A stretch of 64,000 nucleotides of DNA from Bolinopsis microptera (Eukaryota > Ctenophora > Tentaculata > Lobata > Bolinopsidae). Under the pieces are notes generated by a model. It saw nothing but the letters and a program-made list of their open reading frames with translations, was not told the origin of the DNA and did not search any database. The stretch covers positions 10,214,303 through 10,278,302 of the forward strand of contig NC_087075.1 of NCBI RefSeq assembly GCF_026151205.1, in the 5' to 3' direction. The translations under genes were made by a program, and so were the position numbers. This document shows, one piece after another, positions 20,701 through 46,258 of the stretch. How positions within the stretch are numbered: position 1 is the stretch's first letter; every line of letters starts with the position of its first letter.

Positions 20701-22146
20701 AAACATTTTCATTGCTGGGTATATTCAAAATACACTCAAATCGATCGTAATCTGATCTTCCCTTAGAGCCTTAGAATAATGACATGAAATTGATATCTTT
20801 ATCTACTTGGGATAACGTTTTCACGAAATGTATACAGTCTATATATATATACAAATCAAGATTAGCTGTTCACAAATTTAGTACACTAATCAATATCAAT
20901 GATACTTACCTTAATTAATTACAACCCTAACCAGCGGCAAGTTATACTTACAATCTGACCATTAAATGTACGAAGAGGATTATTTTAATATTGCATTGCT
21001 TCACTTGCTTATCATTTTAGTGCTCACTTTAAAGCTTTAAAAATTAAAATCTGCCATTTAAGGTGTATAAAATATCACGTCATAACTGTACACACCTTGG
21101 TACGTTTTCAACGAATATCATGAGCCAACCTGTATTATCATGCAATAGCCTATTAATAATTCCTTATCAGTTGTTTCTAAGTAAGCGCATGTACTTACTG
21201 TTCAACTAATTGATGGTACATTTAAACCCCGATTTACAGGGCCTGAATTTAAAGAAAGTTTCACAGATCCCCAAAAGTGTATATTTCAGGAGTAAAGAAT
21301 TTCCACAACTTTGGAACGGTGAGCCTACTTTTATCCCCACCAGAATACTTACTCCCTATTTGATCTATAGGTAAAATGGTTGCAGAGAAAGAAATACACT
21401 GTTCGTAATAAAAATTTCACAAATTTCACAAATTTCACATATTATTATTACCTGGTTGAGGAGATGGGGCACGCTTGTTAATTTCTGGTTCTTTCTCTTC
21501 CTCACTGCCCGATTCTAGAGGGAAATTGATATGTTATTCCTTAGCTTCAACACTCATGGCAGCGTTTATCTTAAAGTTTATAAAATCATGAAAAATAAAA
21601 GATGTGCAATTTGATGAGTTTCTGCAACAGCATGTTACAAAATTTACACTCCAGACTCCAAATAATAAATTAAAGATGTCATTAAATCAACAAATAGCAA
21701 GAAAATGCAAATCAAGTAATAAGTTCACACACCCATCTCATCTATCAGTTCCATGATAGTCTTATCAATAAACTTCTTGTGTTCTGTCAAATCACACCCA
21801 TAGTCCTTCTCTAGCTGTTTCCTGAAATAGTAAAATAGTGAAATGGTGAAATAGTGAAATAGTGAAATAGTGAAATAGTGAAATAGTGAAATAGTGGGAG
21901 GTGTTGCAAAAGAACAAGGGAGGATTGAATTTGAACAGCCGCTTGATATTTTATGGGTACTGATGAATATCACAAAAAATCAAACAATGCACGGTGCAGC
22001 ACGTGCAAATATGGAGATTAAATTTAAAAGGCTATTGTCAACATTTCAGATAGTACTTACCTAACTTGCTTTGCTGAAAGGTTGTCTAAATCTGCAGTTT
22101 TAAGGATTTCTTTTACAGAAGACACCAATTCTTTTTGGGATGGCAT
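14753..22146 (-). CDS. DEK_C + tandem SWIB domain protein (UAF30/spp27-like chromatin factor)
   Basis: Eleven exons: 22146-22061, 21821-21733, 21514-21452, 18926-18885, 18724-18641, 18004-17948, 17043-16949, 16695-16515, 16325-16253, 16028-15898, 14877-14753. The sum is 1026 nt, 341 aa plus TAG, with all phases consistent. Residues ~1-58 form a DEK C-terminal domain (VSSVKEILKTADLDNLSAKQ, EKDYGCDLTEHKKFID). A charged, Ser/Lys-rich linker follows to ~145. SWIB domain 1 is ~148-217 (SPELAKIIGAEVLP, MYIVCDEDFKAVFGQDRI). SWIB domain 2 is ~240-309 (LWLSPTLSDVIG, ALIKARGLQDPKNKKF, FKTKRIQTFGMMKYLSGHM). The tail is acidic. DEK_C/SWIB proteins such as yeast UAF30 act in nuclear transcription and chromatin. 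The start is the first ATG of the DEK_C exon. Its introns hold a tRNA, a LINE fragment, a foldback element and minisatellites. Confidence 0.93.
15048..15106. repeat. inverted repeat, 17-bp perfect arms
   Basis: Arms AATCAGATTATTGGTAT (15048-15064) and its complement (15090-15106) enclose a 25-nt loop. It lies in the last intron of the SWIB gene. The loop contains further TGTACAATGTAC-like palindromes. Confidence 0.85.
15155..15850 (-). mobile_element. degenerate LINE 3' fragment
   Basis: Read on the minus strand, broken frames give INEGKTKVMTLN, YLGSWIEST, WGALHRLKDIWKSKL, then an RNLDTD-like region. These are the post-catalytic RT and C-terminal signatures of jockey/RTE-type LINEs. Multiple stops and frameshifts make it a fossil. 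It lies in the last intron of the SWIB gene, in the same orientation. Confidence 0.75.
16138..16245. repeat. 13-bp minisatellite abutting a 5' splice site
   Basis: About eight units of CTTAATGTAAGTA. On the minus strand the array begins about 20 bp after the donor of the SWIB-gene exon ending at 16253, and shares the donor's GTACTT word. Confidence 0.85.
18065..18138 (-). tRNA. tRNA-Asn (anticodon GTT)
   Basis: 74 nt on the minus strand with a full cloverleaf. The acceptor GCTTCTA pairs with TAGGAGC (one G-U) and is followed by discriminator G. The D-arm region is TGGCGCAATCGGTTAGCGCG. The anticodon stem TTCGA/TCGAA encloses loop CTGTTAA, giving anticodon GTT (Asn). The T arm is GCTGG TTCAAGT CCAGC. 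A and B box words are intact. It lies in an intron of the SWIB gene (between exons 18641 and 18004), same strand. No intron; CCA is not encoded, as usual for eukaryotes. Confidence 0.95.
19138..19400. repeat. 9-bp satellite (TATCAATTA)n, ~29 copies
   Basis: A nearly perfect array inside the third intron of the SWIB gene. The period divisible by three yields stop-free QLY and IID repeats on the two strands, which are artefacts. Confidence 0.95.
19855..20564. mobile_element. 710-bp foldback-type TIR element with 8-bp target duplication
   Basis: Ends start GGCAGTATCGAGATAGCCCG on both sides. The inverted repeats are long (left 19855-20001, right 20461-20564) and carry differing numbers of a ~17-bp unit containing GGACCACTGTCTGC. 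Perfect 8-bp duplications GTGTATGG lie at 19847-19854 and 20565-20572. The interior (about 20003-20200, + strand) has an open stretch reading DEQGTRDIDALHPGQDMELF onward that I cannot assign. An 8-bp duplication fits hAT, Merlin or related groups; the GG start is not typical of hAT. It sits in the third intron of the SWIB gene. Confidence 0.88.
21822..21897. repeat. 8-bp tandem repeat forming a splice acceptor
   Basis: On the minus strand, ACTATTTC is repeated about eight times. The last unit, ACTATTTCAG, is the acceptor of SWIB-gene exon 2 (starts 21821). Confidence 0.9.
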
Positions 22147-22313
22147 TTTTAAAACAATTGCCTACATATGCATTGTGTTAGTAAATCAAGCCAGGGCTGA
22201 TTGAAACTCCTAGATTTAACATTAAACTGTGGTTATGAAGGTAAACACAAAAATGATACGAAAATTACATAAATACCCACTTCAGATATTTACAAAAAAG
22301 TATAGAACCATTT

Positions 22314-23774
22314 CCTGAAGATTGGTTAAAGGGTGTGATCATTGTTATTGGGAAGAAAGGAGACACTTCAGTCTGCGGGAACAACAGAGGGATCACCTTA
22401 AGGTCTACAGCATCTAAGCTTTTTCAGATGATTCTTCTTAAGCGGTTACATGCTGGTATGGAGTGTCTTCTCAGGGAGAATCAGTGCGGATTTAGACAGA
22501 ACCGCTCATGTATTGATCAGATTTATTCTCTCCGAACTATTATTCATAACTGTCTTGAGTTTAACATTCCTCTTTACATTAATTTTGTCGATTTCAAGGC
22601 AGCGTTCGATTCTATCAGAAGGGACTTTATTTAGTGCAGTATGAGACACTATGGGCTGCCTGAAAAATATGTCAGAATATTTCAGTCATTTTTTGGGGGT
22701 ACCATGAGTGCCGTGAGGGTTAATGGGGAGCTGACAGACTGGTTTGATGTTAACTCAGGCACAGGTCAGGGTGACATTCAAGCACCTCCTGTCTTTAATT
22801 TCTGCCTAAACTTTTCTGCATTTCTGGCTGAGACCAACAAGATCATCAGTCAAGGCGCAGTGCTGCAGAAAGAGACGAAGACGGTCGAGGAAAAGGTCAT
22901 TTTGGACACCGATTATGCTGATGACATGGCTATTATGGACAACTCAGGGGAAGGCCTACAGGAGTCAACTGATCTATTAGTTCATTACAGCTCCTACGCT
23001 GGGCTCAGAATAAATGCAAAGAAGACCCAATGCATGGCTGTAAGCAAGTGCGCCTCCCAGCGACCTTTCATCAAGGATGATTGTATTGAGCTGTCGGTTG
23101 AGGGTGAACCCGTCGAGCAGGTTAGCAACTTTGTCTACCTGGGTGCAACTATCAGTGGGGATGGGACAATCAACAGAGACCTGGATGTCCGTATCCAGAA
23201 GGCTAATGGCGCCTTTCATCAGCTCTGGAACATTTGGAATAGCAGAACTATAAAGACTCCAACCAAGATCAGGATCTATAGGGCTGCTGTCCTCACCATC
23301 TTGTTGTATGGAGCTGAAGTCTGGAACACCACCAAAAAGCAGATGAAACGCTTCGAGGTTTTCCATCAAACCTCCTTGAGAAGGATCCTTAGGATTAAAT
23401 GGTTCTTTCATGTGACCAACGAAGAAGTTCTTAGGAGGGCTGGCATCAAGTCAGTCGAGACTTTCATCAGTGCTGCCAGGCTACGTTGGTATGGACATGT
23501 AGTTAGAATGCCAGACTCTAGACTACCGAGGTTTCTGTTGAACTGGAAGCCAAATTATGGAAAGAGGTCAAGGGGCAGACCCCGTAAGAACTGGAAGTCC
23601 TGCGTACTCGAAGATGCTGCTAAGTTTACAGGTGTTGAAAACATCGACAACAACACGACAGAAGCTTTGGCTACCAACCGAGTACAGTGGAGACATATGT
23701 TACGCCGCCAACGCGATGTGTGTGATGCAGGCCACTCCAACGACTAGGAGGAGACCTTACCATGTAACATGTAT
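22314..23774 (+). mobile_element. 5'-truncated RTE-like LINE with 14-bp target duplication
   Basis: Target duplication GTATAGAACCATTT lies at 22300-22313 and 23775-23788, perfect. The body starts inside the RT (PEDWLKGVIIVIGKKGD) and contains the RT motifs NRGITL, FVDFKAAFD, GTGQGD and DTDYADDMA. The C-terminal signature is YLGATISGDG, LLYGAEVW, LRWYGHVVRMPD, GRPRKNW. One in-frame TAG at 22632-22634 stands where a Trp is usual; otherwise the frame is open to TAG 23745-23747. The 3' UTR is only 27 bp, as in RTE-clade elements. The endonuclease is missing through truncation. It lies upstream of the - strand SWIB gene start. Confidence 0.92.
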
Positions 23775-23788
23775 GTATAGAACCATTT

Positions 23789-24660
23789 TAGAATGAAAAT
23801 GACATAAGGTCAGCCAAGGTAAACGGATAAAGTAAGAGAGGTATACAGTTCTATACTATATCCTGATCCTGTTTAAATCTGGAGTAGAATTAGTATAAAT
23901 TGAGCAAGCTACAATTAGACTGGTATAAATCCATTGAAGTGGCAATGTTAACGGATTTCAAAGAGCTGGAAGTCTTAGAAGACTACAGATTTATTAACTG
24001 AATGAAGCAGTGGAAAAATCAAATGAGAATTACTGACATCCTGCAAAATATCACACCCCTAGATTCTTTCTCACCCATGTGAATTATATCGGTGTCAGTA
24101 TTTCAGAAAAAATTTAAAACCCCCACTCCCTATCGGATCCTGAAAGTAATGAACCCATACATGTCTTTAAGAGTCTTTAGTTTTGCTACATCACATTAGT
24201 AGACATGTAAGTTACAATCAACCAGGATTCCTACAGAGCAGGATAGGATCCCACTCTATTAAAAATCCTGCATCTGATAAAAATCCCTGTCAAGGCAATA
24301 TTTCCAGTTCGGGCAAAATTCCTGCCACATCCAATCTCTGACAACTATTGCTCAAATCTCTGTGAAGCATTAAGCAAGTGTGTCCGATATCCAGCTAATA
24401 GGTTTGAACATTCTGGTGTTTTTTCAACCCCATTGATTTGAATTTCTGTTCAAACGAAAGAAGATTAATGAGGAAGATACGTCTTGAGTGATCATTCCAT
24501 AGGATCACTCTTTACCAAAATGTACCTCTTCTCCAAATTCAGTGAAAAAATATATATATTTCAGTGAAATGAAGCAAAGTTGCTGAATAAATCAGAATAT
24601 ATTACGTTAGTGAAGAATAAAAGGAACTAAGACGACTCTAATATTAGGAAATCAAAATAT
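23789..24660. other. intergenic between two retrotransposons
   Basis: No exon or repeat was recognised. An AT-rich, A-run-rich stretch begins near 24660, next to the 3' end of the following element. Confidence 0.4.
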
Positions 24661-24721
24661 TCTAAACAATAAAAAAAATAAAAATAAATAAATACGTAAA
24701 ATAAAATAAAATAAAAAAAAA

Positions 24722-24836
24722 GGGGGGACCCCCAACCCATGTAGCTGAGACACCTCACAGCAAGTAGACCAAAGTGGCTCTTGCTTGTGAAGGGTGAATC
24801 AACTACCCGCCGAGGCGGTGGGTTGGGAGTCCCCCC
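24722..24836 (-). repeat. stem-loop in the 3' UTR of the RLE retrotransposon
   Basis: GGGGGGACCCCCAACCCA (24722-24739) pairs with TGGGTTGGGAGTCCCCCC (24819-24836), with 17 of 18 positions complementary, around a 79-nt loop. Stable 3' UTR structure recognised by the element's own RT is known for R2-type LINEs. That role here is inferred. Confidence 0.8.
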
Positions 24837-26620
24837 TGGGATCATTTCGTCCGTAAAATTTTACACATTATAAAAGCTACAATAAATTATCTATAAAATT
24901 TACATAAACAAACTTAAGAGAGCTCAAAGCTCGTCTTCTGAGGAATGAGATTGAAGGATATGTCATCCAGTCCAAGGTGCTGGGCTTTTTGTCTTCCTCT
25001 GATTCCCCTGAGTGCTATGAGTGTGCTTCGTAGCAGATCAAACCTGAATCGTGTTCTGATGTGATTTTTGACCTGGCTCTTAGCTTCTTTATTGTGGTCA
25101 GCTATCCTTTCAGAAATACGATCTACAAACACAGTGCAGAGTGGGCCCATACCTCCGGATGTTGTAAAGACTAGTGGGACAAAGGACCCTTTCTCTGACT
25201 GAAGTACTCTCTCCTCATAGAGATCTTTCTTCTCTTTCTCATGCGCACTGTAGATTTTATCTAGTGGCTTAAATGTATTGGAGTCGCAATTAGGATGAGT
25301 GACCCTGATGTCAAAGAATGTTCTTTCGAATGGTGCATACAGTCCAACAGCTGCTATGTCCAGACGGGCTTCATCCTGGGTGTTGGTCTTCCTGGAGAAT
25401 GAAGTTGGTTGGACAGGTAGGAGTGCAGGTTCTATCCTTACATCCTTACACTTTGCTTCTTGAAGGAAGAAAGCTACAGTGTCTCTAATGGCATTGTGGC
25501 GCATGCAAACGTATCCACCTAATTTACAATCAAGGGAGTGGTAGACACTGTTTGCATGTCCGCAAGCACATTTAGAGGGCACTCCTTGGATCTTCCATCC
25601 ATAGCGTAGGCGTATGCTGTCTTGGAACTCTTGCTTGTTTAGAACATAGTTGAGGTCCTTTAGAGGTAATACTGAAAGCCATGTTGATGCTCCCTTCTCT
25701 CTTGCTTGGTTTAAGTGGTTCTTAAGAAGATGATCTGACCCATTATAAAGCATCTTGAACCTTTGTGGTAGAAACTCATCCTTCTGTTTTCTCAGTTCTT
25801 CTTTCTTTTCTTTCATCTTGCCCATATCCAGCTTGGTGATATCCTGGTCTTGTTGGTTGATTAAACTCACAAGATCTTTAGTGAGTGCCACTGAGAATGC
25901 ATATTCACGAGATGATATCCTGACGGGATTGATGATACCTAGGCCTCCACATCGAACAGGGAGTTCAAGGATATCTCTTTCATGCTGGTTGACAGGGCGA
26001 CCGAGGAGGGCTGGAATGAGCACATACATGATCTTGCTCTCTAGTGGGACAAAGTGCTCTCCAATGTCTGGTATAGTACGCATGTAGTATCTCCATCTGT
26101 GGCATATTCCTTTAGTAAAGGCCGAATAAGCCAACTTTGTGGTTCTTCCGTCGCTACATCTGCTAGTTGATCAATATCAACTATCCATTTTTCGACTTTT
26201 TCTCTGATGTACTCTTCCCTGAATTCTTTTGAGCCTACAACAGCACCAAGATGGCGTTCTCCGGATGTCGTGATCTTAACTCCCATGTGTTTAAATAGGG
26301 TTTCTGCTTCTATTAGCTCTTTGGGGTTTTTGACAATCAGAATTGTCTTTTTTGCGTTGGGGCGGTACCCATATCTTGGGCCTATTTCACAGAGTCTATT
26401 CCACCAATGGAGCAGTTGGATGAAGCTTCCACATGCAGAGCTGTCATCAGCATACCACACCATAGTTGCTTCTGCATATGCTTTGAGATCATCTATTATA
26501 GGTCTGGTGGCTATGGAATAAAATTGCATTGCTGCAACATCTCCTTGTGTGTTGCCTTCTTCACCCCAGATGAACTCCCCTGACTTTGAGCCGGAGATGA
26601 AGAGCTTTCTCTTTGCTTGG

Positions 26621-27227
26621 CAGAGGCGGCTATTGAGGGCGTCCAGGCGTCCATGGACGCCTTAAAATTATTATCTGGTGGCTGGTGCTTAAAATAGAAA
26701 TAGTAATTAGTAATAGTGTTAGGAAATAACAAATCGCAATATAAAGGTCTTCATTTACTATCATACGTTTTAATGTAAGCGCACGCGTGATCTTCGTGAA
26801 ATTTTGTGTTGTAGGGAGTCCAATCCTACCTCTGGACTACTCAGCCGCGCAGTTTTAACACATAGTTAATTGTAAACGTTACAAAGCACATCGTGTGCAT
26901 CCCACTATAGGTAATCTATTATGATTTGCCTCGATTTGGGGGTCCAGGACCCTTTGCAATTTGACTGCTATATGATACTGCGCGGCTGAGATTGTACACG
27001 TGTGGACTGGTGTCCTGTTTCACCCATGTTATAAGTTTTTGTGTTTGTTTGCTGTCGCCTGTAAAGTGTTACACATTACATTTACAAGGCCCTGTGTGTA
27101 ATGTAATCGGTAGTTTGGAGGGATCAGCTTGAGCCGGCTCCCAAGCCCCCCTCCCCCCCCCCCCCCCCCCAGTCCATCGATTGGACCCCCAACAAAACTG
27201 CCAGCCAGCTCCCACGAGCCGCCTCTG
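26621..27227. mobile_element. 607-bp non-autonomous hAT-type element nested in the RT
   Basis: TIRs CAGAGGCGGCT / AGCCGCCTCTG. Perfect 8-bp target duplication TTGCTTGG at 26613-26620 and 27228-27235. On the minus strand, the RT frame stops being sensible at NTYQA and resumes at KRKLFISGSKSG; one duplication copy joins them in frame. The interior contains a 14-bp inverted repeat (CTCAGCCGCGCAGT, 26840-26853 against 26977-26990) and a long C run near 27150. No transposase. Confidence 0.93.
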
Positions 27228-28140
27228 TTGCTTGGTAGGTATTTTTAAGGAACTGGTGAAACACAGGGCAGGTTGTTGCAACAGTATCAAGAGCCAGCTC
27301 TCGGTGTAAACTGTTAAACGCATTTAATGCATCAACTAGGAGAAGGCCTTGGCTGTTTTTGTTGGCAAAGTTCTCGGCCATTGAATGAACTGCGGCTTCT
27401 ATACCTGACTCAATGCCACTGCAGGTTTGTAGGGATCCACTTGCCTCCTTAATGTGTTCTTTGATAGTTCTTGTTACTGTTTTTGTCATAATCCTTCGCA
27501 AGACTTCACCAATGCCGATAGGTCTGACTCCTGGTCGCTTGTCCAAGGGGATCAGTCTGCTTGCAAGAAGATCACTGAGCATGGTTGGTGCAATGGTTTC
27601 AGTGCATAATCTTTTAGTAACATCGGCTATGGCTTGAGCTAAGGTATCATTGCATTTTCCATAGCTCTTTGAGCATAGAATGTGTTTCCAACCGTCAGCA
27701 TCAATGAGAGTGGGGCCTCCTGATCCATGGGTGTTCTTGGCAGCAGCTTTGATGGCTTCGCCGTCAATTTCTTCAAACAGTACAGGTTCTATATCAATTG
27801 TTGGATGTTTCTCTGGCCCATCACGCTTCGTTGCAGGAGGGTGTTTTTCTCGCAGCTGTTTGATTGTGTCATCATTAATAGGAAGAATGCCTGTTCTCTT
27901 CTCATTGTCTATTAGTCGTGTGGCTTCTTTTACTTTACCCTGGAGCATTCTCCGGCAGAACGCCTTCTTTTCATTGAAATCTTTAGTAACATTTATCTTC
28001 TGAAGGCGGCTCTGTATCATTCTACATTCTGACAACAGTCCTTCTATGTCTAAACAATAAATGGAGCTTAAAATCGTAAACTTTAATTCAATAAACTTTT
28101 CGGCACACTCCAATGTTTGAGGATTATCTAAATCATGGTG

Positions 28141-29353
28141 GACTCATACAATAATGGAGTATTTGTTGACTAGATTCATCTATTAAAATCATGGGCACAC
28201 ACCAGCCTCGAACTGAAAATCAGCAAACAAATGGAGTCCGACTAAACAGTTATAATAATAATTAATGTTATTTTTTATACACCACCAAAAGGTTACATAA
28301 TTTTAATTTAACCCTTATGCTCAGCTGTAAATAATACTTAATTAACGAGAGCGTCCATCTTTGCCTTGGACGGAGGTGAAACAAGAAACTGTTAAGAAAA
28401 CAGAAGTTTTAAATATTATCATTTATCAATACTTCCAACACTTGTCACTATTATGTAAAGAATTATTCGCTAATAAGTTAAATGTTAAATTCGCAGACCG
28501 AGGACTAATCCAAAAGTAAACAGCAAAATCCGTCGCTTGATACTGACAGACTAGCAATCATTAGCAATCTGCAATCATTACAGAATATTTCGATGAGACG
28601 AATAATTAGCCATGGTCCGGTTTAGGTAGCGCTCGACTTTGCCATGACTTTGCGACTCACTGCAAACAAAAAGCAATCGCGCGGCGCCAAAATGTGATTT
28701 ATATTAGAAGTTTTCATCGCTCAAAATCAAAAAACATTTAAAAATATTTTGATAGCAGTTTTAATCATTTATACCACTTTTTAAATTATCGGTTTTTAGA
28801 TTTACAAAATATTAAAATACATTTAACTATTTATTAAAAGTTAACATGTTTATGTAATTTTTTTAAAGTTTGTTTTTTTATTTGTATTTTGTAAACCTAT
28901 TTACTTCGCAAAAATGTACGTCAAGTTTTAATTCATTTTCAATTTTAATTTGAACTCAGGATTTTTGAATTACAAGAGAAAATCCAATAATTTTTATTAC
29001 GTTATAAATTTAACAATTCCAGATTAGACCACAGATTCCATATCGCAGACTCGCTATCGCGCCGCGCGCTTCGTTAACAATTGTCTCATTCACTATTTTC
29101 AGCGCTATATATTTTCGGCACTGGATAAAACTGCAAGTATTTTGCAGGTCGAGCGTGGCCTATTCTACAAACTCATGTTGCCGTAAGTTGATTGTGTTGC
29201 CATTTGCCTGCTCAGTTTAGTCTACCCACCGAAAATAAAACAGAATACTTGTAAAAATTAGATTGTTTTTGTTGGGTTGATGAGACGGGATTAGAGAACT
29301 TGGTTTGGCCCTGTTTAGCTAGTGCTTCTTAATTTGTGGAATTTGTTGGCTCT
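28141..29353. other. intergenic / presumed NF-YA 5' region
   Basis: AT-rich, with a local CpG-rich patch near 29055-29075 (CGCGCCGCGCGCTTCG), possibly promoter-proximal for the + strand gene starting at 29354. No exon found. Confidence 0.35.
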
Positions 29354-32300: not shown

Positions 32301-32870
32301 CGTGTGAGCTTTCTTATTAAGCGTTTGACGAGAACTTTCTGATAAATTTCTAGCAAAATTAACATACATGACATAACTAAATCTAACCGAACTTAATCCT
32401 CTAAACAAATAAATTATAACCCACTTTAGTTCTCTAAACTAACCATGTTTTAACTAATAATAATATAATTCCAGCAAAATTCTCTAAACTAAGTACGTAT
32501 TAACTGTGTTTTAATACTTTCAACACTACCATATTATAGCAAATAATTTGAGAACATAAATATAATAGAAGTTCCCCTTGGTCGCATGTACAGAATTATC
32601 AGAAGTTTTGAACTCTAAACATATGTGTTAACTAATATAATTCCAATATAAGTCCCCTAAACTAATCTTGTTTTAACTAATTCCAACCAAGTTAACTAAT
32701 ACAGCTCCCTAAACTAAGTATATATATATATTAACTAACCGTCTCTACTCCAGGGTTTATCACACAGTTCCATCTCCCCTCCACACGGTCTGTCCTACTC
32801 TCCTGCTGGACTGTCCTGTGCTCTCCAGAACCCGTCTCCTCCTTCCTCCCTCAGTCTCAACCATCTCATG
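29354..32870 (+). CDS. probable 5' coding exons of the NF-YA gene
   Basis: Exon 29354-29503 starts MDHYGSGLVATLQTRNLSL and ends CAG|GTTTGC in phase 0 (50 codons). Exon 32754-32870 (GLSHSSISPPHGLSYSPAGL onward, 39 codons) has a strong acceptor (CTCTACTCCAG), a strong donor (ATG|GTGAGT) and phase 0 on both sides. Composition is Ser/Pro/Asn-rich, like the C-terminal part of the NF-YA protein downstream, on the same strand, with no other gene between. The link across the 10.7-kb intron is inferred; the exons could belong to another transcription factor. A weak candidate linking exon (37314-37362, low confidence) lies between. Confidence 0.5.
32420..32740. repeat. imperfect repeats ending at an acceptor
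   Basis: Four or five degenerate copies of a CTCTAAACTAA...TTTTAACTAA...TAATTCCA block run up to the acceptor of the exon at 32754. Confidence 0.6.
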
Positions 32871-35800
32871 GTGAGTCCTTATCGTTGCTAAGATACTGCA
32901 TCTTGATTGGTTCGTTGCTATGATAGTGTACCTTGAGTGGTTTGTTACTGTCACGTGATTAGAGTAGTGGGTTGTTGTTCCAGTCATTGATCTGTGATTA
33001 TATATGATAGGAACATCCACGTCCCTGGACTAAAAGCACAAATCATGTTCAAACCAAAAAAACAGAATATCCACATGCTATGTTTTAATTAAAACTGTTC
33101 TTAAACTAATTCCACGTTACCTTCCTATTCTTTAAAACTCATTCAAAAGGAATCCCAACCAAATGAATTCCACTCTCTCTCGCCAGTACGTACCTTACAA
33201 AGAGCGTCTAATACCGTGTATTTCCTACTTCTGACCCGTACTTAGTTGTGTGCTGCTTTAAAATGCCTTTGTGTAGTGTAAATAGACGTTTAATGTCCGC
33301 CATTATAACATTATATTGTATAATGTTATGTTTTATATACACAATTTAACTTGAGTTATAATATGTGTGCTGGATCATCCTCTGACTTCTTTCTTCCTGG
33401 GATTTTAATGTTGGACAGCTGGAGAGAGTTACGAAATGTTTGTGACATGACTTCGGCGGTGTTGTCAATCTTAATGTTAATGATCGACGATTAAAAGAGA
33501 GAAAAGTTGTTGAAAAGTTATACGATTTCTTAGGGTTAGAGGTGGTCGGTGGAACTATTGCTCGAGTCTAATCGACGTGTCAGTCCGAGTGTGTGATCCT
33601 TGATAACTTAGTCTGTGAATTGGAATTTGACAATTATACTGGAAATTTTGCATTTTTGACATGCTGAATTTCAAAAGCGTCGAAAGATTTTTCCATGTTC
33701 TTGACACTTTTGGCACCGCGAATTTTATAAAATATGTCATTAAAGTGTCTATGCGTTTTCGACGTTATGGATATTAAGCATACAAAAAGGAAGTTGTTCG
33801 TCATTTTTGAAAATTTAGGAGCTAATATTTGTGTGCTATCGGTGACACGCACCGTAGATTGCTTACATAATATGTAGTTGTACAAGGAAAAAACATATAA
33901 TTTACCGCTGAATAAATTACGACTTATATCGGCTAAGCCATATGGTTAAGTTTGCTATGAAAAACATATTTAATCATGTACTTACTTACTTCATCTCATA
34001 TGATTATGAAAGGAATAATGCGATATCAGAAACACTACTATCTAAAGAAAGTTAGAACAAGGTTACTTGTGCAAATGACGACAGGTTCTATAGATTTAGA
34101 TTCTGATGGGGAAGTGAAACATATTTTTGCTGACACGTGACAGTAATTAGTCAATCAGCTTCTAGCATTGATCAATTAAATCTCAGAAGAATTGAGTTCA
34201 AAAGAACTCAATTAAAAACTCATATAAAAAAACTAATTCTTGATCGAAAATTACGTCAATTAATTTAATTTTCATTAGCTTTGGAATAAACTGATTTCAA
34301 ATTTCACAACTAAAAACAATATATTCTGATTTCGTTTTTCCTGCCAATACATCATGTTTCGTTTAACAGGTATCTGGGATCAAGCTATTTAACGTTTTAA
34401 ACATGTGTGATTATACATCTCAAACAAACCATACTGCTCCCCTTAAAATACTATTGTAGACAAAGCTCTGTCTTAGATACGAGATTTTTGGCTTCATAAA
34501 TTCAGTAATACCGTCTGAAAAGCTCCGTAAGAAATATTGTTGATTTTCTACAGCTCCTGGTCCGGCCACAGATGCGCTCCCACTAGACTCTTTGATCTTT
34601 CTTTACAGCTGGAACCTGGTTCAAAAGTTATTAATAGTTGTAGACTTGTTTACGGTATATAAGTTAAACCTGCCCAAGCTAGAGAGCCATGGCAGGGCCA
34701 GCAAGCAAGGCCCGGACCAAAACACACTGAACCGACTGAGTATGGTGTTCAACCACTTAGATAAAGACAAGATTTTAGTCAGTTACAATATAAAGCCATT
34801 TAACGAAATCATCAATTTTTATTAGCAAAACTCAAACCGAAACTGGACAATTTCATAGGGAAAATTTATAAGTTCCTACTTCCTATACTTTCGTTACTTG
34901 TATTAGCTAATACCAAAACACCAAACAGACGTTTATAGTATATCTGAAAAAACATTATAGTTTTGAAGTTATGTTCAAGGAGATGATCACAATTTAATAG
35001 TTTAATCTGTGCAAAACTTTCGTTTGATCATTAAAGAAAAATATATTTGAAATTAAATTTAAGATTTAAATTACCTTATTCTTTGACGACAAACCAACAT
35101 CAACCAGACATTGCAACAAATATTTATGTCTAGTTTACAAGTACTTACTTGTTGCACAAGTCACGCCGTATTCTGCAGATTTTAAACTTTTAGCTGGTAT
35201 TTCTTCCTCCTTATCTAAAACAGGGAATACTACATTCCACAGGGAACGCATTCCACAGAATAGTTTTATATTTTACAGGCCCTATTTAGCTGTTTGGGTG
35301 TTCGGAGGCTGTGCAGCAAGATTTGTTGGGGGAGGTCCTTGGAGCTCAACACGGATATGTTGTCATGGCAATACAATTAAATTACCCACGTGACACTGAG
35401 AGCTTCCCATTGGTCCATTTGTTGTCACGTGACTCTTATCTTCCTCCACATTGGCCCATTTCCCGAGCTATATTTAACTTGTTGTGACACGTGCGCGCGT
35501 CTCACTGCACGAATTGGTCCCCTGCAGTGGTACCGACTGATCAGTGGTTACCTTCATCACGTGACACGCACGTGGGTGATCGTGTGACCTAATAGAAATG
35601 GTGAGGAGGAAATACAGTACTTGGTAGTGCGGAGAGGAGGGAACGTAGTAAAGTATCAACAATCAAAATATAATGTACCTTGGCTGCAGGCAGGTGGGTT
35701 CCAATTACGTAATAGTCAGGATATATAGCTCAGCCAGCGTAGGGTAGGGACTATATACAGATTACAGGTCCCGGGCTGGTTAATTAGGGACCACATACAG

Positions 35801-38800
35801 GCAAGTTGGGGTCTTATACAGGCCCGGCCCCGGGCGGTTAGACTAGTAGGACTGGGTAGGGACGGTGCACTTTCCTCGGTCTTGTAGGGTAGGTCTAGGG
35901 ATGATCTAGTTCTCAATATTCCCCTCATTAGAAGTTTTATTAACAGAACAGGCTAGTTTCTGGCTAGACAACTTCGCAACAAAACTGGTAGTTACCTTTA
36001 AGTGAGTATACATTGTTTGGTTTAATTTCTAATTTCGGACAGTTACAAATTTTACGTGATATCAAATCCCATTAAACATAAACATTTTCCTTAGAAAACT
36101 TACAGGGTGGATCAGAAGTAACTGCCCACATGCAACCCTTTAATATAAATAACTCACGTCAGAATTGGACAACAATTTCAGAGAATATAGATATGGGCCA
36201 AACTTAGGTATCCTGAAAGTGTCGTAAAATTTCATTGATCAGAGAGGGTGTGGCACATACACATTTGGTCTGATAATTGAAGTGCTTTCCTAAAAGTTGG
36301 TTGCTTCCAATTTAGCCGAGTTATGACCATTTTAAGATCTTGCGGTTACGTGATCCAGGCACTTAATCAGTGATCTCTTCAAAGTTCAATCAATAAAATT
36401 CAATGGCCTGATTGGTTGGGGATTGCTTATAGTTTGACCCATCTCTATTATTTTGAACACAAGATCAAATGTTGAGTCTAAAAATTGTTCACGATTCCAT
36501 CAAATAAACCTCCCAAGTATCCCTCGAATAAGAACATGAACAATTCCACGAACCGTCTTTTTTATTTCGTTCCATTTGACCGTTTTAAGTATTTTAGAAT
36601 CGTCTGACCTTTCTAACGGGATATTTAAAACAAAACCAGTGGAGATATAATCATGCACGAATAAAACACCTACTTATTTATCGTGAATTTCGTAGAAAAA
36701 TTGTAAACATAAAACTCGGTTGTCTACAGTTTAGTTCATTGCAAACCGAAAATTTAAGAAAATGGGGATTGGAAGAATATGAGTATAAACTATAAGATCT
36801 TCGAATAAAACCAGACAACTTAATAATAATGTTCGTTTATCATCAAAGTTTTCTGAGCACCGCGAGATATCAGACAGTTTACCAGTTACTGTTACAATGC
36901 ACCCAGTTAACGGTATTGCTCCTACCGGTTTTATAAGTACAATTTTTCCTTTTATATTCAAGGACCTATTTATATTGGTATCATATTTATCCCGGTAAAT
37001 GTTGGTTCTGGTGCAACCGAGCGCCGTTTTAGATTCTAGCTGTTATAACCTGAAGCAGATATTGAGGATTTTTACCAATAATACTGTGAAGTGTGAAACC
37101 ACAAGCACTTTCGTCAAACATTGCTATGCTGCTGAGTTTGATGGATGGGAAGGTTTTAATACTAGCTAGGTTTTCAAAACGTTACCAAACGAGATCAGCC
37201 CACAAATTAAATTTCCCAACTTCAAATAGATACCAAGTTTCTCTTTCTAAATCAGCCTGATCACCTCAGTACAAACTTAAATTACCCACATATTTTCAGA
37301 CACCACGCCTCACTATCACCAAGCACAGTACAGTCTCCCCACAAAAACGTTAGATACATCATGTCATACAATTTTTCCAAAAAATAATTTATAATTCTCA
37401 TAACATTGCTGTGTATTTCTGACTTTTCCAGTGTCCAACTTTATTTTCGCGTCAAATCTTGCTTACCTATTGGTATGCAGCTAGATAAAAGTTGACAAGT
37501 ATAAATAAATTTTGCTCATCGTGAGAGAGCTGTTGGAAAAGATTTTCCATGTTTTTCGTATTATATAAAGCTCGGAGAAAACATATTAAAGACAAGTATA
37601 TTGTTGTGATTATAATTGTAGTTACGTAATCTCCATTATGATGAAGTAAGGGGAGGATGGTGTGAGACTAGATGGCGTATGTCAATGTTTTATGAAAAGT
37701 CAGGAGGTGTGGCCATGTCGAGTGCTTCAGTATCGGTTGATGATTTCAGTGATTAGACACGTGTTAATTGGTTAATCACGTGTGAATTTTTTGTTTCATA
37801 GAGACACATTAACAACACGTTCAAATGTGATCCGGTTGATTTTGGAGTATGGAAATTTTAATCGCAGTTGTTGAAGATCAGCATGATGTAATGTTTAAAA
37901 GCTTGCAGATTATTTTGTCTGTGATAGTCTGGCTATTCAAATGGCTAAATGCTTTTCGCGAACCAAAACTTTTCTTACGTAAACGATAAACACATTTAAA
38001 TATAAAGATACTGCTAGAAGTAACAAATACTTGTATTGTGACATAAGTATCGGTGGTGGGGGCAAAGACATTTTATAGTTGACGGAGAAAATATACAAAA
38101 TTGATAATATCAGCCGTGGCGTTTGAGAAAATATACAAAATGGATATCAGCCGTGGCGTTTGAGAAAATATACAAAATGGATATCAGCCGCGGCGTTTGA
38201 TCTTATAAAAACGGATCTTTAAGGGTAAGCAAAACGTTTTGCATGCTTACCTTTCAACTAATGTTTACTTGCGTTTAGCCGTTCGTCGTATACTTTCAGG
38301 TAGTTTTACAGAAATACAAACCGTCCATTTCTAGTTAAAAGGATTATCTAGGTAAAGTGTTGCTGCTCCTACAATACTTCTACCATCTTCTGAGTCTAAC
38401 TCTGAGAGTAATCTCGGCATTATGACCATTCATAATATTATTATATTATGAATATTCACTGTGGAGCACGTGCAATGTGCATCAATAACCAAATCGTATA
38501 CCTTGCTAAAACTTGTTGTCAGCCATTTAAACGCCAAAACACAGCAAGTAATCCAGTTCTAAGGTCCCAGACATTGCATGAGTGACATCACATGCAGTTA
38601 CAACCATGTTGTCTATTTCAATAACACAGCCATATTTTTAACTTTGTGGCCGTTGAACGTCGCTAAACGTCTTGAGAACAATCCTGCCATATACTTTCAG
38701 TAGTTCAATCGTCTTATTTATTTCAAACAACATGCAAAGTACACGGAGTAATTTCACAACAATCTGCCGACCTAGACTAGGTTTTACTCTACCACCGAAC

Positions 38801-41800
38801 TGAACATGTCTCTAGCTCGCTCAAAGGACCCACTAGTCGGAACTACACCCACTAGTCGGAACTACACCACCCCACTGGTGCCGACCAGTGACCACCCGTT
38901 CAGCCCTTAATCCCACCGCTCTCATAAACTGCTGCGCGCAACACTGCACGTTTTACTCCATAACACGTTATCATTCATCGTCACACTCACACATTTCTCG
39001 AACTGCCAGATTTGAACGGAGCAGTTTAAGATGACCCTTGTGACTGTGCTTTATAGAAGTAAAGAGACACATCCCAGTATCACACCCTCAAACATCACAC
39101 CCTCACAAACAATTCACACCTTTTTAGACATGGTTCTCAGTTATAACGTGTGATTTGTGCGAAACTGGGCTTGTTTCACACAAGTCACACTTAAGCTGAG
39201 TGTGTTGGGAATTCTTTTGGTTTAGTAATTGACACTAATGGTAGCATATACTCTTAAGTTAGGTCCAGAGACCACTGAAGACAAGTTGAAGGTAAGGTTC
39301 GCAGAAACCAAACTAATGCTGTCATGAGGTTACCCGGATTTAAGGTATAGGTCAGTTCTGTACTCGATTGATAGTATATAGACTGATTTGAATATGATGT
39401 TAATTGTTGTATAGTTTAGTGACCACAAGTGTACATATTGAACGGCAATTGGTCACTGGTCAGCGTGTGATGACCACAGATACGGATACGAATCAAGCCA
39501 AGTTGAAAACTGTTCAACATCTGCTTGTTAATTGTAGCCGTGCTTGTTAGAATATATTTTATCTGATCATGATTTATTCAATAAGATCGGCCTTAAGTGA
39601 AACCACCTATTTTTTGACTTATAACCCTTACTATTTTTACATTTATCAAAAAAATATTAAAAAACAACCCTGCAAGTTTCCACAGTACTAATTAAGTACT
39701 CCGTAAAAATCAACTTATCCTAATCTGTGTCGTCAGCATAATGTTTCTCTCGGAAAGTAGCCTTTTTTTAATTCAACCCCGCCAACAATTCTTTACAGTA
39801 CTCACAAAAATTAACATGGTCTCTTAAATCTTTCCTCATAAGACAGCATAGCATTCAATCGTACAGTATATATTCAAAGGTGTATTACGAATCTACGATT
39901 TATTGTACTCAAAATGCTTAGGACTTTAATTCAAGGAAGTTCGGGAGGAGAAAGGCCATTGTATTGTTTAATTCCTCAATAAAGAGGCCTCGTTGTATTC
40001 TCCCTGATCAAGGATCACTCTAATCTTAAGGTTACTTAATTAAAGATCATAATGTTCATGAATATCTTGATTAGTAAGGCTGATGGGGTCTCTTTCAGGA
40101 GATCTGTGTCCGACATAAAGTTTTAATGACAGTAGACTGACTGCTCTGTAAGACATGTAATTTTACTAAATCTCAGCTGACCCGGGTTGGATTGCGGAGA
40201 TGTCCAGAGCATTGATCTACCGTCTCTAAACATCTCAATATGGTTAAGAACAGGAGTAGAAACTGAACCGGGAATAGAAACAGAAATAGGACCAGAATTA
40301 ATTTTGTTCAATCCGTTTTTCAATCTCCTTATTTATCGTAGTGGTTTGACTTTCATTTCCCAAAAAACAGTTTTGGAGAAAGTAAGGGTAGAGAGAATAT
40401 ATTCCCCTCTGTAGGTTTAATGCTTATAGATGAGCAAGCAAGCTTGTTACTTTCTTTCCTTGTACTATACTTCTACTGCTCCCTTGCTTTAAGGAAAAGA
40501 AGGAGTGCAATTATCCACCCTAACAACCTATCCGCATCACGTGACCAGCTCTCGTCCAATCAGAGCCGCGTGTTTAGGTCACGTGACAATATCCAGCCAA
40601 TGAGCGCGCCCTGTTTCCTCCAATGAGTGGCGCGTGGAACATGACTTACTTCTAAGTAATGGGTATTTCCGTTAGGGACCAGGCAACAAGGGCGGTCCGT
40701 GGTAGTGTAAATGTACTATGTAATGGAGATACAGGTAACATTAGGTGCTCTTTTCGAGTGACACGTGATGAGTCATGTTATTAGGGTGACGATGTTATGA
40801 TGTCATCACCCATTTCATCTCAATCGAACCGAGTCAAAAGCTAATCCCCCCTTGATGCTTGAGATCACCTTTTTAAACCATTGTTCTCGAAGGTCCCTGA
40901 AATTCTGAGACAGCTAACATTACTGCACACAGGATCTTGGGATTGAGCCTATGATGATCAGATGACCCTAACTACTCTCCTAGGTCCCGGGAACTTGTCT
41001 CTTTTATTCTTCTAAAGAATAGACTGAAGACTCGTCATATTTATCCTGGATCATTTCAATTGTCTAAACGGGACCAGTATCTAACCTCTTAAACCCGGGC
41101 CGGGGGGGCTTGTATTTAAACTAAATACAAGCCCCGTTTAGCTTTTAACCCTGGACGATTTAGGGGGTTGTATTTACTCATTTATATTAGGGGGTTGTAT
41201 TTTCCCTTGTAAGATTAGGAGCTGGAATTATAATGTATTTAACCCTGGATGGGAAGGGGGAAATGTAGTAAAAGTACCCTCGTTAATTCCAGGTACTACG
41301 CATCCCCTAGCTCGATTCCAAAGTTAAGGACCCGGGCGAAATGACCGTGGAGCATAGGACCGTACTCCCAGACTCACAGTTAGACAGCTGCATTAAAACT
41401 GAGATCTGGGGTTAGGGAGATGTTGCCAGGGTTTAGGGAGAGCCTAGTTTAGGATTTAAGGTTAGGGAGTTGGCGTGGACATTTAGGGTTCACCTGAAAC
41501 TGGGCCTGTAGTTAATTTTAGCCAGGCAAAGAGTAACGTGGATACCTGGCATGGAGTCATCAAATTGTATTTTGCAGTGCAAGAACTGCATAACTTGGAC
41601 CGTTGCCCGCCAACCAGCACGCATTTTAGTCTCTGTTTACAGGAACACGTGCATAATTTATAAATCAAAAATCAGCATATTTCATCTTTAAAATCAGCAT
41701 ATTTCCCCTTATGACACTGCATATTATAAGGAAATAGGTTATGTAAGCATCAAGTATGTACTTTTCAAGCATTTACTACTTACTCAGCAAATAGCAATGG

Positions 41801-43035
41801 AAAGAATACCGGAATTGTACGAGGTAAGGATATGGGGTAATGAGAGCAGTTGCCCGAAACCTGGACTTAAAGTCCAAGCATACATTGCCACTCCAAGATC
41901 CCACACGTACGAACGATCTGATATTATCCCGGTACAGAGATAACACTTTGGAGGTGTTCCCTTAAGTACCTTGTCAAGTGTCAGTACTTATTGAGCACCC
42001 ATTCTGTACCAACATAGAGTTGTTGAGTACCTGTTTGGTACCTACTTAACAGGTACCAGGTAGATCAATCCCTGTAAAAACACATCAAACATCACGTCCG
42101 TTTGGACTGTGTGTCAGCTGCAAGTGCAATATTCCCGTAGGTCTGTGTATTTAGAACCTATAATATGCGCACTTAATGTACCTTCTAACTGCCTACCCCT
42201 ACAACTAACTCTCTTAATGAGCCTCAATTTCTGAGTTCCCTAGAGTTTTATAATCGTGGTCTTTGTGCTTTTATATCAGCAGCTCTATTTTATTTCTCTC
42301 TTTCTGAGTGATTTGCGCCAAAGTAGCTGCCTCTTCAATGTTTGACAGATTACGAAAAAATAACATAATTCCGCTAACCGTAATTCTATCGATAATATAT
42401 ATATATTACATATATCAATAGATAAAGGGATATCTGTCGCGATGACAGACCGCAGGTTTTTGTGTTCGGTTTTTGCTGAGTTCCTCGACATCAATTAACT
42501 AATTAATCAATTAATTAACTAGATGAGTCTGGGACAGGAGGTACCCCGCGAATTGTCATAAGTGATAAGTGTGTATGGTTGGTTCCAAAACCTTAACAAT
42601 ACAACTACTAAACATTATATCAATTAACGGATACTCCAGCGAAGACCTTTCGAGTTGTAACTGAACTGTTATATATTAACTGAACTATTATATATTGATA
42701 TATTTAGTGTGTGTGTTAACTTTCCAAGTTTTTTCTACTGTGGATTACTTGAGGGTGATGTCATATTCAAACACTAAAGTTAGGGGTGTAAAACGTTCAC
42801 ACCTGATTTAAAAATCTGATCATTCAAAGAAGGTAATTTTTTAAAACTTAATTTGTTTCTATAAACCAGGAATGATCTCTTGTTCTCCTCATCTTCCAAG
42901 ATACGTGCATATTTTATCAAGAATCACACCTAATTCTCGTGCTGCAATGAAAAGGAAAATCAGGCATATCAAGACACGTACACACGATATTAAACTAGCA
43001 ATAAGTTTCCTTCTCATACATGTTCTTCAGCTCTA
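32871..43035. other. long presumed intron of the NF-YA gene
   Basis: No second gene was recognised. Contents: a 36-bp tandem triplicate near 38083-38200 (AAATATACAAAATGGATATC core); a hairpin at 41105-41135 (14-bp arms GGGGCTTGTATTTA); CCAAT plus CACGTG clusters near 35385-35460 and 40535-40625; an unassigned open stretch at 34560-34825; and a possible small exon at 37314-37362. Confidence 0.4.
41105..41135. repeat. short perfect hairpin
   Basis: GGGGCTTGTATTTA and its reverse complement, separated by 3 nt. No associated gene. Confidence 0.85.
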
Positions 43036-43625
43036 GTATGTCCCTTATTTCAGATGATGATATACAGCCAGTCCGTTATCCATTACCCGGTACCCTCTAA
43101 CTTCTCCCCTTATTTAAGATAATACCGTCCAGCCAGTCCGTTACCCATTACCCGGTACCCTCTAACTTCTCCCCTTATTTAAGATAATACCGTCCAGCCA
43201 GTCCGTTACCCATTACCCGGTACCCTCTAACGTCACCCCTTATTTCAGATGATACCGTCCAGCCAGTCCGTTACCCATTACCCGGTACCCTCTAACGTCA
43301 CCCCTTATTTCAGATGATAATATACAGCCAGTCCGTTACCCATTACCCGGTACCCTCTAACGTCACCCCTTATTTCAGATGATACCGTCCAGCCAGTCCG
43401 TTACCCGTTACCCGGTACCCTCTAACTTCACCCCTTATTTCAGATGATACCGTCCAGCCAGTCCGTTACCCGTTACCCGGTACCCTCTAACGTCACCCCT
43501 TATTTCAGATGATACCGTCCAGCCAGTCCGTTACCCATTACAATACCCGGTTCCCTCTAACGTCACCCCTTATTTCAGATGATACCGTCCAGCCAGTCCG
43601 TTACCCGTTACCCGGTTCCCTCGCT
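43036..43625. repeat. 65-bp minisatellite carrying a splice acceptor in each unit
   Basis: Nine copies, exact 65-bp period (the eighth has a 5-bp insertion). Each unit contains CCCTTATTTCAG followed by ATGATACCGTCCAGCCAGTC (one copy group has AAG for CAG). The last copy runs directly into the NF-YA homology-region exon. Confidence 0.95.
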
Positions 43626-43646
43626 TCACGAGATGTCTCCTGAGAG

Positions 43647-46258
43647 GAACCACTATATGTTAACGCTAAACAGTACCATAGGATACTGAAAAGAAGACAG
43701 GCCAGAGCTAAACTGCAAGCTGACGGCAAGATACCCAAGATTCGAAAGGTAAGGCTCTTTGCTGTAAAAATTGTTTGAGTTTTCTGATTTTATTTTAAAA
43801 TCATTAGAATTAAACCTCTGTAACGTGCGAATAACTTTTTTATCCAACTTATTCGGTTGACCATATGGGACTTAGGCTGTTCTCATTGTATTTGTTATTT
43901 GTTACACGTGACCAATATGCTATGATGATTTGCTACTGAGTTCATGGAGCGTGGAGCGTAGGTACGGCCATTCGCACCCACCGTATCCGTATTGTACCTC
44001 TGATGTGTCGCCCCTGGTCGTTGACACCATATTTGATTATTTGCAGTCCCCCTCTTCCTTTTTTACTAAAGCTTTACGATATTTTGCTTTATCAGCGAAA
44101 AAAAGTTGCTCAGTGATATTTCAATCGATTTCCTCGAAATCCTCAAAGTTTGACTACTACAGAGTTTTATAATTTATTGTTAACCTTTAGATGTCCGGTC
44201 AGGGACCGAGGTTTGGCGAACCAGGTCAAAGATATTGTTTCAATTTTGATCTTTTCGTAATTCTCGAGCGAGTGGTCAGCTCCAATCCCAGCACGAGTCT
44301 TTTGTCCACAAATTTTGTTTGATTTCTATTATATCGGAGCCCCTCGAGGTCCAAATAATTTAAATTTTTGTCGTCAAAAGGGATTCGATTTCTAATGGGA
44401 AGCTAAGTGACACACACGTGGCCGAGAAGCAAATTAACTTGCTTGGCAATAACCAATTTTAAAATAATGGGTTATGGTTTTGAGATGTCGTTATAACCAT
44501 ATCATCTCAAATTTAGGTTGAAGACTTTTTTTAGATTCAAAACCTTTAAAATCTGATGAGATTTAACTTGAGTTTTTAAATTAATATTTTACCTATAAGA
44601 TTGAAGTTTTATCATTTACCTTATCGTGAACATAAAATGACACATAAATGAATATTATTTAAAAGGCAGTGGGCCATATTATACATATTTGAGGTGGTTC
44701 CACATCACAATAATTTTGTATGTATACAAAATTATTGTGATACTAGAAAACCCGTGGTCACAGGGGGAAAGCTAATAGTATTTTTTGTTAGTAAGTTTAA
44801 ATCGCGTCAAAAAGTATTCATCCCACCGAAGATACAGCCGATTAAAATGTTGCTCGTACTAAAAACAACGTAATATCAACAAAACCGATAAAAATTACGT
44901 TAAAACAATCATTGCACGTGCACGTACGTGTAATAACCCTCGTTACCATGGTTACTTTGCAACCTTTTGCTTTTTACCTAATTTGCACGTGGGCGGTCGT
45001 ACAGTGTACAAACATTGTACAAACAAAAAGAATTCTCTGAATTATAATATAGATATCACAATTGCACAATAAGATTTTAAGAATGTTGCTAATAGTACCT
45101 TAAAGTACGTAAATGTACCTTCAAGTACCTAAAAGTACCTTATCATTACAGAAGTACCTGCACGAATCACGGCACCTACACGCCTGCAGAAGAGTGAGAG
45201 GAGAGGGCGGGAGGTTCCAAAGTAAGGGTTCCAACAATAACGGCCAGGCTAGTCCTGAGATTAAGACTGAGGTTGGTACATTTAAATTTTTCATTATTTT
45301 TGTATTTATTTGTGTTCCTAATAATACTGGACACATATTATTATTTATTTTTAATAACGAATTATGAGTACATTAATGGACGCGTGCTGAAATCTAAACT
45401 GTGAATAATTGAAGTAAAATGAGATATAACTTGTATGTTTTTCAGCTGAATCTCACTTTTGAACCAGATAAGAATGAAGCTCTTGATATCATTGACTTTA
45501 ACTTTGTAATTTTGATTCAGGAGATAAACTTGGATTTCCTGAGTTATACGAACTACAAACCAAACCCATCTCAAGCTATATCGAGCTCAACATTTTCAAC
45601 AACGACCACCTCTACAAATGGTAAGCTATTAGTATTATGATCCAATTAATCAAGTTAATTGATTTTTAATGAATTTATTGTCTTAAGAAATATCCAGGCT
45701 CTCCATATAAATAATCCCAGTATATGACCCCACTTCCATACCTGTAACTATATTTGACCCCACTTTCATACCTGTAACTGTATATGACCCCACTTTCATA
45801 CCTGTAACTATATTTGACCCCACTTTCATACCTGTAACTGTATATGACCCCACTTTCATACCTGTAACTATATTTGACCCCACTCTTCTCCAGGTCTTAT
45901 ACACACAGTTATACCACGACACGACAACTACTACCCAGCAGCCGCAGCGCACCCCAACACGCCGCACGTGCGCACGCCGCGCCACTCCAACTCTCACTCA
46001 CCACCCTACGCCACCCACCCCTCTCCTCTCTCCTGCGAGGTTTCCTCCCTCCCCCTCACCATCGACAGTTTCACCAACTCCAACAATATTTCGAACACTT
46101 TGACCAGCCTCATCTCGGTGAAGCAGGAGAAGATTGATTGCGAGCTAGGTGAGATGTTGGGCGAAACAATGTTGGGAGGGAGGGGCCTGTTGGGGCCTCA
46201 CGACCATCAGATGGTACATGGCCTCCAAAACCAGGGCATCCCCACTCATATCAGTTAG
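43647..46258 (+). CDS. NFYA: NF-YA, CCAAT-binding factor subunit A (HAP2 homologue), 3' exons
   Basis: Exons 43647-43748 (start uncertain by a few nt), 45152-45271, 45446-45620, 45894-46258; phases 0, 0, 1, stop TAG. The first encodes the subunit-association helix (EPLYVNAKQYHRILKRRQAR), which binds the NF-YB/NF-YC histone-fold dimer. The second encodes the DNA-binding segment (KYLHESRHLHACRRVRGEGG), which contacts CCAAT. Both are unmistakable. One unusual residue is Cys where Met or Leu is normal in HAM/HAL. After the homology region comes a ~180-residue Ser/Pro/Asn/His-rich tail ending HIS-stop with a VKQEKID motif; vertebrate NF-YA instead ends soon after this region and has its Gln-rich domain upstream. 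The 5' edge is preceded in frame by TGA (43641-43643), so an acceptor at GAG|AG or GAGAG| is required, or a 2-nt indel is present. Nuclear transcription factor. Confidence 0.93.
44704..44741. repeat. perfect hairpin, 18-bp arms
   Basis: ATCACAATAATTTTGTAT, 2-nt spacer, exact reverse complement. It lies in the NF-YA intron between the two homology-region exons. It could be a MITE core or cruciform; no target duplication was seen. Confidence 0.9.
45715..45890. repeat. 30-bp minisatellite ending at a splice acceptor
   Basis: Six copies of a unit containing TGACCCCACTTTCATACCTG, alternating TATATG and TATTTG starts. The last, partial unit (TTTGACCCCACTCTTCTCCAG) is the acceptor of the terminal NF-YA exon at 45894. 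Confidence 0.93.

Follow-up and report, generated by a model that had tools for sequence, protein, structure and literature searches.

Minisatellite arrays carrying exon ends and splice sites in introns of the ctenophore Bolinopsis microptera

Exon ends and splice sites repeated within introns

A 64 kb stretch of the Bolinopsis microptera genome (contig NC_087075.1, positions 10,214,303 to 10,278,302, here called the window) contains several genes with tandem arrays of short repeats at or near the ends of introns, and it had been predicted from this stretch that splice sites are amplified together with the intron end by a process that recurs in the genome. A survey of the whole assembly (264.65 Mb, 232 contigs) bears this out and takes it further, as ten tandem arrays in a sample of 275 introns carry the end of the adjacent exon together with its splice site, and with one further 59-nt exon copy such copies are present inside 11 of the 275 introns. 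The arrays are probably splice-junction minisatellites of the type known as mirages, in which duplications of an exon-intron border are tolerated and then expand and lengthen the intron.

The intron sample was built without regard to arrays. Pfam models were searched against the whole genome, each exon giving a separate match and introns being taken between consecutive matches, with the models for kinase, chaperonin, myosin, kinesin, AMP-binding, SNF2, adaptin and UCH and four dynein domains (DHC_N2, AAA_6, Dynein_C and AAA_8). Exon pairs were required to have near-consecutive model positions and a gap below a limit that varied between sets (4500, 8000 or 9500 nt). Matches from single exons or without a possible neighbour had been taken out of most exon lists by hand before intron sequence was viewed, and the intron ends were solved as GT/GC-AG pairs from reading frame, model length and splice score. 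The scoring matrix was trained on the introns of set 1 and used for both sample and window sites. Set 1 kept 139 of 146 pairs, reduced to 133 once duplicated genes were removed, set 2 kept 86 of 90, set 3 kept 45 of 49 (of the other four, three fell below threshold and one could not be solved), and set 4 all 11 of 11; the length difference to the Pfam model is 0 residues for 104 of the 146 pairs in set 1. Sets 3 and 4 (56 introns, 23 arrays) constitute the hold-out, with thresholds fixed in advance and families partly added later. PF00443 and PF01602 were named first, and as these gave too few introns PF18199 (set 3) and PF12780 (set 4) were added with unchanged thresholds; PF00443 gave five usable introns and PF00501 one. 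Arrays were called with Tandem Repeats Finder (TRF) at a score of at least 50, giving 107 arrays in 72 of the 275 introns, and are termed crossing if they include 4 nt or more of the exon and abutting if they end 0–12 nt inside the intron.

The ten crossing arrays have units of 18–65 nt in 2 to 52 copies, with at least eight copies in seven arrays and two copies in three, and eight are located at the donor and two at the acceptor. At L012, in a kinesin gene, the donor array has 52 copies of a 33-nt unit made up of 26 nt of exon and GTAAGTG, and the repeated exon codons read INTSLSELG, which we take to be a kinesin motif. The unit of L026 is composed of 30 nt of exon followed by GTAAG (25 copies), that of L091, a dynein gene, of 53 nt of exon and the donor (12 copies), and that of L120 is the 18-nt CCCAGCAG|GTATGTAGTT in 34 copies. 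L027 repeats the acceptor CCCCTTTTCTCAG together with 29 nt of exon start, reading FSFIDLAGS, in 26–29 copies. These five introns occupy C12:14428273-14430090 (L012), C2:22504380-22505845 (L026), C2:22511843-22514489 (L027), C2:21035700-21036509 (L091) and C2:20962797-20963748 (L120). Eight copies are present in L022 and 24 in the second intron of L019, and the first intron of L019, L048 and L080 hold two each. The single exon copy, missed by TRF, is found in L014, also on the acceptor side, and consists of 59 nt from the start of the next exon. Independently of TRF, an 18-mer of the exon end (at most one mismatch) recurs in the adjacent intron on 8 of 550 junction sides, all eight reaching the junction exactly, with no such match in the reverse complement and none in 2741 draws against other introns. 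Exact 14-mers likewise mark eight junction sides, of which seven are at distance 0 and the eighth at 20.

Two further features of these loci may be mentioned. The kinesin gene of L014 (C12:14.83 Mb) has one 21-nt repeat unit in two introns that flank an exon block. Several of the acceptors of L023, L017 and L027 read CTAATTACAG, which may place a branch-point-like CTAAT within 10 nt of the AG, and short arrays in L017 and L023 repeat most of this motif.

Position of arrays relative to splice sites

The expected number of arrays at intron borders was obtained by uniform seeding, where each intron is contracted to one unit per array and units are free to straddle the border. An earlier null that confined arrays within introns gave 8 of 46 arrays touching or crossing against 0.3 expected, and was dropped as unfair since a unit may straddle the border. 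Under uniform seeding 10 crossing arrays are observed against 8.63 expected (P 0.35), indicating that junctions are no barrier and that a hotspot is not needed to account for crossing arrays, and junction-spanning duplications look nearly neutral. Within kinesin genes the numbers are 7 observed against 3.73 expected (P 0.047).

The abutting arrays amount to 18 against 6.93 expected, a number reached in none of 50,000 simulations, and crossing and abutting arrays together constitute 28 of the 107 arrays against 15.56 expected (P 0.0002). The abutting excess is similar with arrays at most 40 nt apart merged (18 against 6.76), when a single array is counted for each intron (16 against 5.61), in non-kinesin genes (13 against 4.82) and under strict splice calls (15 against 5.79), and the excess near splice sites persists at distance cut-offs of 5, 8, 12 and 20 nt. 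An extra push of arrays towards splice sites is possible. The idea that abutting arrays are diverged crossing arrays was for the most part rejected, as a 16-nt junction probe stood out on 3 of 22 sides in 264 introns (n69, n88 and n219, with at most 0.09 of shuffles as good).

Arrays might be so common that some of them end near splice sites by pure coincidence, with nothing special about these sites, and this explanation is possible but not likely. About a quarter of the sampled introns hold an array. The number of crossing arrays agrees with uniform seeding, and the hold-out shows 4 arrays at borders against 3.11 expected. The window cases are not significant either, as three of the four tabulated introns (DEK_C, SWIB, SH3 and that with the 30-nt array, all described below) have an array within 12 nt of a splice site against 1.29 expected, or two of the four with the stricter SH3 figure, and the window by itself is weak evidence for more than chance. 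Coincidence is however at odds with the abutting excess, which holds under all the variants given above, and it does not explain away the exon copies themselves.

A second explanation, that splice sites are hotspots where arrays are seeded, for example by DNA breaks linked to transcription or splicing or by slippage at the donor motif, is unlikely. It would account for the abutting excess, for the number of crossing arrays in kinesin genes, and for the units of L012 and L026, which end right after the donor motif. The pooled crossing arrays, however, require no hotspot, those outside kinesins are fewer than expected, the hold-out does not decide, and two units that end at the donor motif may share a short homology by chance. 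Tentatively, splice sites themselves could generate arrays in this lineage through a minisatellite process that favours exon borders, so that intron size and competing sites co-evolve, which we regard as rather unlikely; if true, a single intron could confront the spliceosome with as many as some fifty nearly identical donors or acceptors, with perhaps only the exon-side one used.

The mirage interpretation, which we prefer, has to be set against a number of observations that weigh on the other side. The excess of abutting arrays was first seen in sets 1 and 2 and is not confirmed by the hold-out, where 2 of 18 arrays in set 3 cross or abut against 1.49 expected (P 0.46) and 4 of 23 in sets 3 and 4 together (P 0.37), numbers too small to decide; near arrays in sets 3 and 4 are 3 against 1.51 expected (P 0.19). 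Outside kinesin genes crossing arrays fall below expectation (3 against 4.90), and the mirage introns are clustered, as they account for 8 of the 58 introns from kinesins but for 3 of the 217 from other genes (P 0.00025). By coordinates the 11 mirage introns correspond to about eight genes, and 8 of the 11 are in kinesin genes, so the 4% in the sample should not be taken as an even genome rate. The splice call of L027 deviates from the Pfam model length by 6 residues, the preference for the exon-side copy is deduced from the domain continuity of the exons, and no array in the window is a proven crossing array. The original prediction that the process recurs in this genome holds up, and that it is more than chance stands in part: the distance from arrays to splice sites, compared with the null on the 275 sampled introns, gives an excess overall and for abutting arrays, but not for crossing arrays or in the hold-out, and several of the window arrays do not border on a splice site.

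Intron growth and the choice among splice-site copies

Short tandem duplications may arise anywhere in introns, and some of them would straddle the exon-intron border. Such a duplication should be harmless, and survive, as long as splicing keeps the exon-side site, and could then gain or lose copies through slippage or unequal exchange, as other minisatellites do. Arrays that end a short way within the intron, as in the window, might stem from this process too, with the exon, which cannot change, as their limit. The outcome would be an intron lengthened by hundreds to thousands of bases, perhaps with its own splice site in dozens of copies.

Arrays make up 1.3% of intron length in introns below 200 nt and 21% in those of at least 1000 nt (264 introns). 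With the surplus copies removed, the L012 intron is reduced from 1818 to about 131 nt and that of L091 from 810 to about 160 nt, which is near the usual short introns, suggesting that the arrays enlarge introns that already existed; both introns retain a stretch outside the array that has an acceptor of its own (98 nt in L012 and 95 nt in L091). Intron gain by tandem duplication of AG|GT proto-splice sites has reportedly taken place in the potato RdRp gene. The same route is described for near-intron pairs in Drosophila in parts of PMC2891723. As in such cases, coding sequence and a splice signal are tandemly duplicated here and the extra copy ends up in the intron, but the intron seems to pre-exist and is enlarged by the array. 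Birth of the L012 and L091 introns by this route was considered and is not supported, as the array does not constitute the whole intron and an older intron end remains.

The copy from which the coding domain continues is the outermost one, that is the first at donors and the last at acceptors, and this copy is presumably the one spliced since the domain reads on from it. In the ten crossing arrays 190 splice-site copies were found, including the ten that belong to the exons themselves, and GT/GC or AG is intact in all 190, in a search with at most four mismatches from which badly decayed copies would escape. When seven arrays were aligned to their consensus, 2 of the 354 letters in splice dinucleotides were mismatched, against 1.3–6.6% at the other positions. 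Both figures, and the consequences of using the second donor, might be taken to indicate that the repeated sites are kept by selection as splicing decoys or regulators: in the eight donor arrays the second donor would lead first to a stop in five and to a frameshift in one (L022), a possible off-switch. In L120 it would however add 18 nt in frame, and in L080 the script found no second donor copy. As many as 215 of the 272 unit positions show no mismatch at all, with the mismatches piling up at a few positions, so that intact internal sites are expected without selection, and a role as decoys or regulators is very improbable. The argument that internal splice sites are all intact and hence selected was dropped for the same reason.

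Mirage minisatellites are described from amphioxus in Adh3, troponin C and the globins BflGb6 and BflGb9, with similar repeats in PGBD5, and passages of the two papers concerned report undisturbed splicing, unstable copy number, length differences between haplotypes and somatic instability (PMC3087553, PMC3902484). In the same passages, as in Bolinopsis, the unit spans the exon-intron boundary, both 5' and 3' borders are affected, and many copies keep AG/GT; the unit sizes overlap, with 10–72, 150–160 and 157 bp in amphioxus and 18–65 nt here (PMC3087553, PMC3902484). The present cases differ in belonging to the ctenophore lineage, in coming from an array-blind survey and not from single genes, and in having up to 52 copies, and they are known from the DNA of one assembly. 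In Caenorhabditis elegans the minisatellite CeRep25B is reported near alternative splicing regions in parts of PMC4039745. This is likewise an over-representation of a minisatellite near splice decisions, but of one named repeat family, whereas the array units sampled in Bolinopsis differ from gene to gene. A paper on earthworm metallothionein describes intronic repeats, and its relevant passages do not mention border-spanning ones. No report of border-spanning minisatellites in a ctenophore was found in the open-access collection searched, and among the matches listed the amphioxus papers were the only ones recognised as clear precedents elsewhere. Border-spanning minisatellites are already known from amphioxus, and what is added here is their occurrence in a ctenophore, their array-blind frequency and a neutral yardstick. 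It would appear from this that minisatellites duplicate splice sites outside the cephalochordates as well, and the finding points to one concrete route of intron growth. The arrays also offer natural constructs in which 8 to 52 nearly identical splice sites compete, which makes the choice of the exon-side site by the spliceosome testable.

Window arrays, probable mobile elements and neighbouring repeats

The exon borders, on which the original prediction depended, are sound in four introns of the window, because the joined exons restore whole domains (DEK_C, SWIB, SH3_9 and CBFB_NFYA). Tandem repeats are common in the window, with 141 TRF rows of score 30 or more; for another ctenophore, Hormiphora, a passage in PMC8527503 gives 13% repeats by TRF. 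TRF recovers every array for which a period and a position had been given, with the exception of the diverged repeats at 32420, where there are just two short rows (32634–32655 and 32882–32946).

The NF-YA gene is located on the plus strand, and its exons 43647–43748 and 45152–45271, when joined, match PF02045 (CBFB_NFYA) at 1–56 of 56 (E 5.1e-29), the latter exon encoding the second half of the core (acceptor score 7.0, donor 8.8). Upstream of these, at 43042–43622, is the 65-nt array with about nine units, of which seven contain the acceptor motif TTATTTCAG with scores of 8.2–10.2. The last of these acceptors is at 43579, with 44 nt of array continuing past it, and the array crosses into the exon only if this acceptor is used. 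In the frame from the array into the NF-YA core there is one stop, just before EEPLYVNAKQ, which makes the coding acceptor uncertain: either the acceptor at 43579 is not the coding one, or else the real acceptor lies at 43647, a weak site with a score of -0.8. An array not named in the original prediction, with a 10-/20-nt period (5.2 copies of 10 nt), is found at 45089–45142 on the plus strand, 9–11 nt before the acceptor of the second NF-YA exon, and the first 8 nt of this exon (AAGTACCT) are present twice in the preceding intron. Two such exon-start copies in the last 70 nt occur in 1 of the 275 sample introns and in 0 of 275 when other introns are used as control; no 8-nt exon-edge copy was found in the introns that hold the 8-, 12-, 13-, 10- and 30-nt window arrays. 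The 30-nt array (5.5 copies, 45720–45884, plus strand) ends 9 nt before the acceptor at 45894 (score 12.4) and is assigned to the presumed NF-YA gene from the upstream exons; the exon after it has an open joined frame as its support and is without homology of its own. The terminal unit was said to hold the acceptor, and by eye the repeat does run into 45894, but in a diverged form.

On the minus strand, an intron of 239 nt within the DEK_C domain (21822–22060, donor score 10.4, acceptor 11.4) is flanked by exons that joined match PF08766 at 1–54 of 54 (E 5e-22). Its 8-nt array, TTTCACTA on the minus strand, extends over 21823–21896 to 1 nt from the exon, and the terminal unit contains the acceptor as had been claimed, with TTTCAG in place of TTTCAC. 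The 12-nt array (54129–54256, minus strand) precedes the acceptor of an SH3 exon in the intron 54122–54416, where the joined exons match SH3_9 at 1–49 of 49 (E 4.1e-15). It is 7 nt from the acceptor by a weak TRF row (score 32) and 17 nt by the main row, so that its description as abutting depends on the row chosen, and the acceptor is outside the unit. To say that the arrays abut was too strong for the 13- and 10-nt repeats. The former (16143–16231, minus strand) begins 21 nt from the donor within the SWIB intron 16029–16252, whose joined exons match SWIB at 1–61 of 74 (E 4.6e-17), and its units carry a weak donor-like motif with a score of 3.0 against 7.6 for the true donor. The two 10-nt arrays (9915–10180 and 10381–10432, minus strand) are separated by 23 and 40 nt from the two ends of the probable intron 9892–10472, the upstream exon of which has no Pfam match.

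Arrays could also be brought in by DNA transposons with minisatellites in their terminal inverted repeats, some of which land near splice sites. The kinesin copies L015 and L016 are near-identical except for a 940-nt insert in one intron, with inverted ends that contain 11-nt arrays (L016:724-1785 against L015:731-852), and by eye TGTGTCTT occurs once in the empty copy (L015) and on both sides of the L016 insert, although a script test for overlap found none, with a one-base difference adjoining. Among the near-identical gene pairs this is the only one whose introns differ clearly in length, and the difference is a transposon-like insert and not a mirage. Positions 19855–20564 of the window have a similar layout and constitute a probable mobile element, with 42-nt perfect terminal inverted repeats starting GGCAGTATCGAG and leading into inverted 14-nt minisatellite arrays. 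As a general source of the border arrays such elements are improbable, since they cannot yield units that contain the end of the host's own exon and its splice site, and the longest frame of the L016 insert (103 aa) has no Pfam match. They appear to be a second source of intron arrays, next to the minisatellites of splice junctions.

Reverse-transcriptase frames, probably remains of retroelements, are present at 22635–23744 (RVT_1 and DUF6451) and 27127–28143 (RVT_1, below the curated cut-off) of the window. Elsewhere in the assembly, gene pairs with 98–100% identity within one chromosome were seen at C13:4.98/5.07, C11:11.30/11.34, C3:14.38/14.63 and C3:18.57/21.28 Mb, and these are either recent duplications or unpurged second haplotypes.

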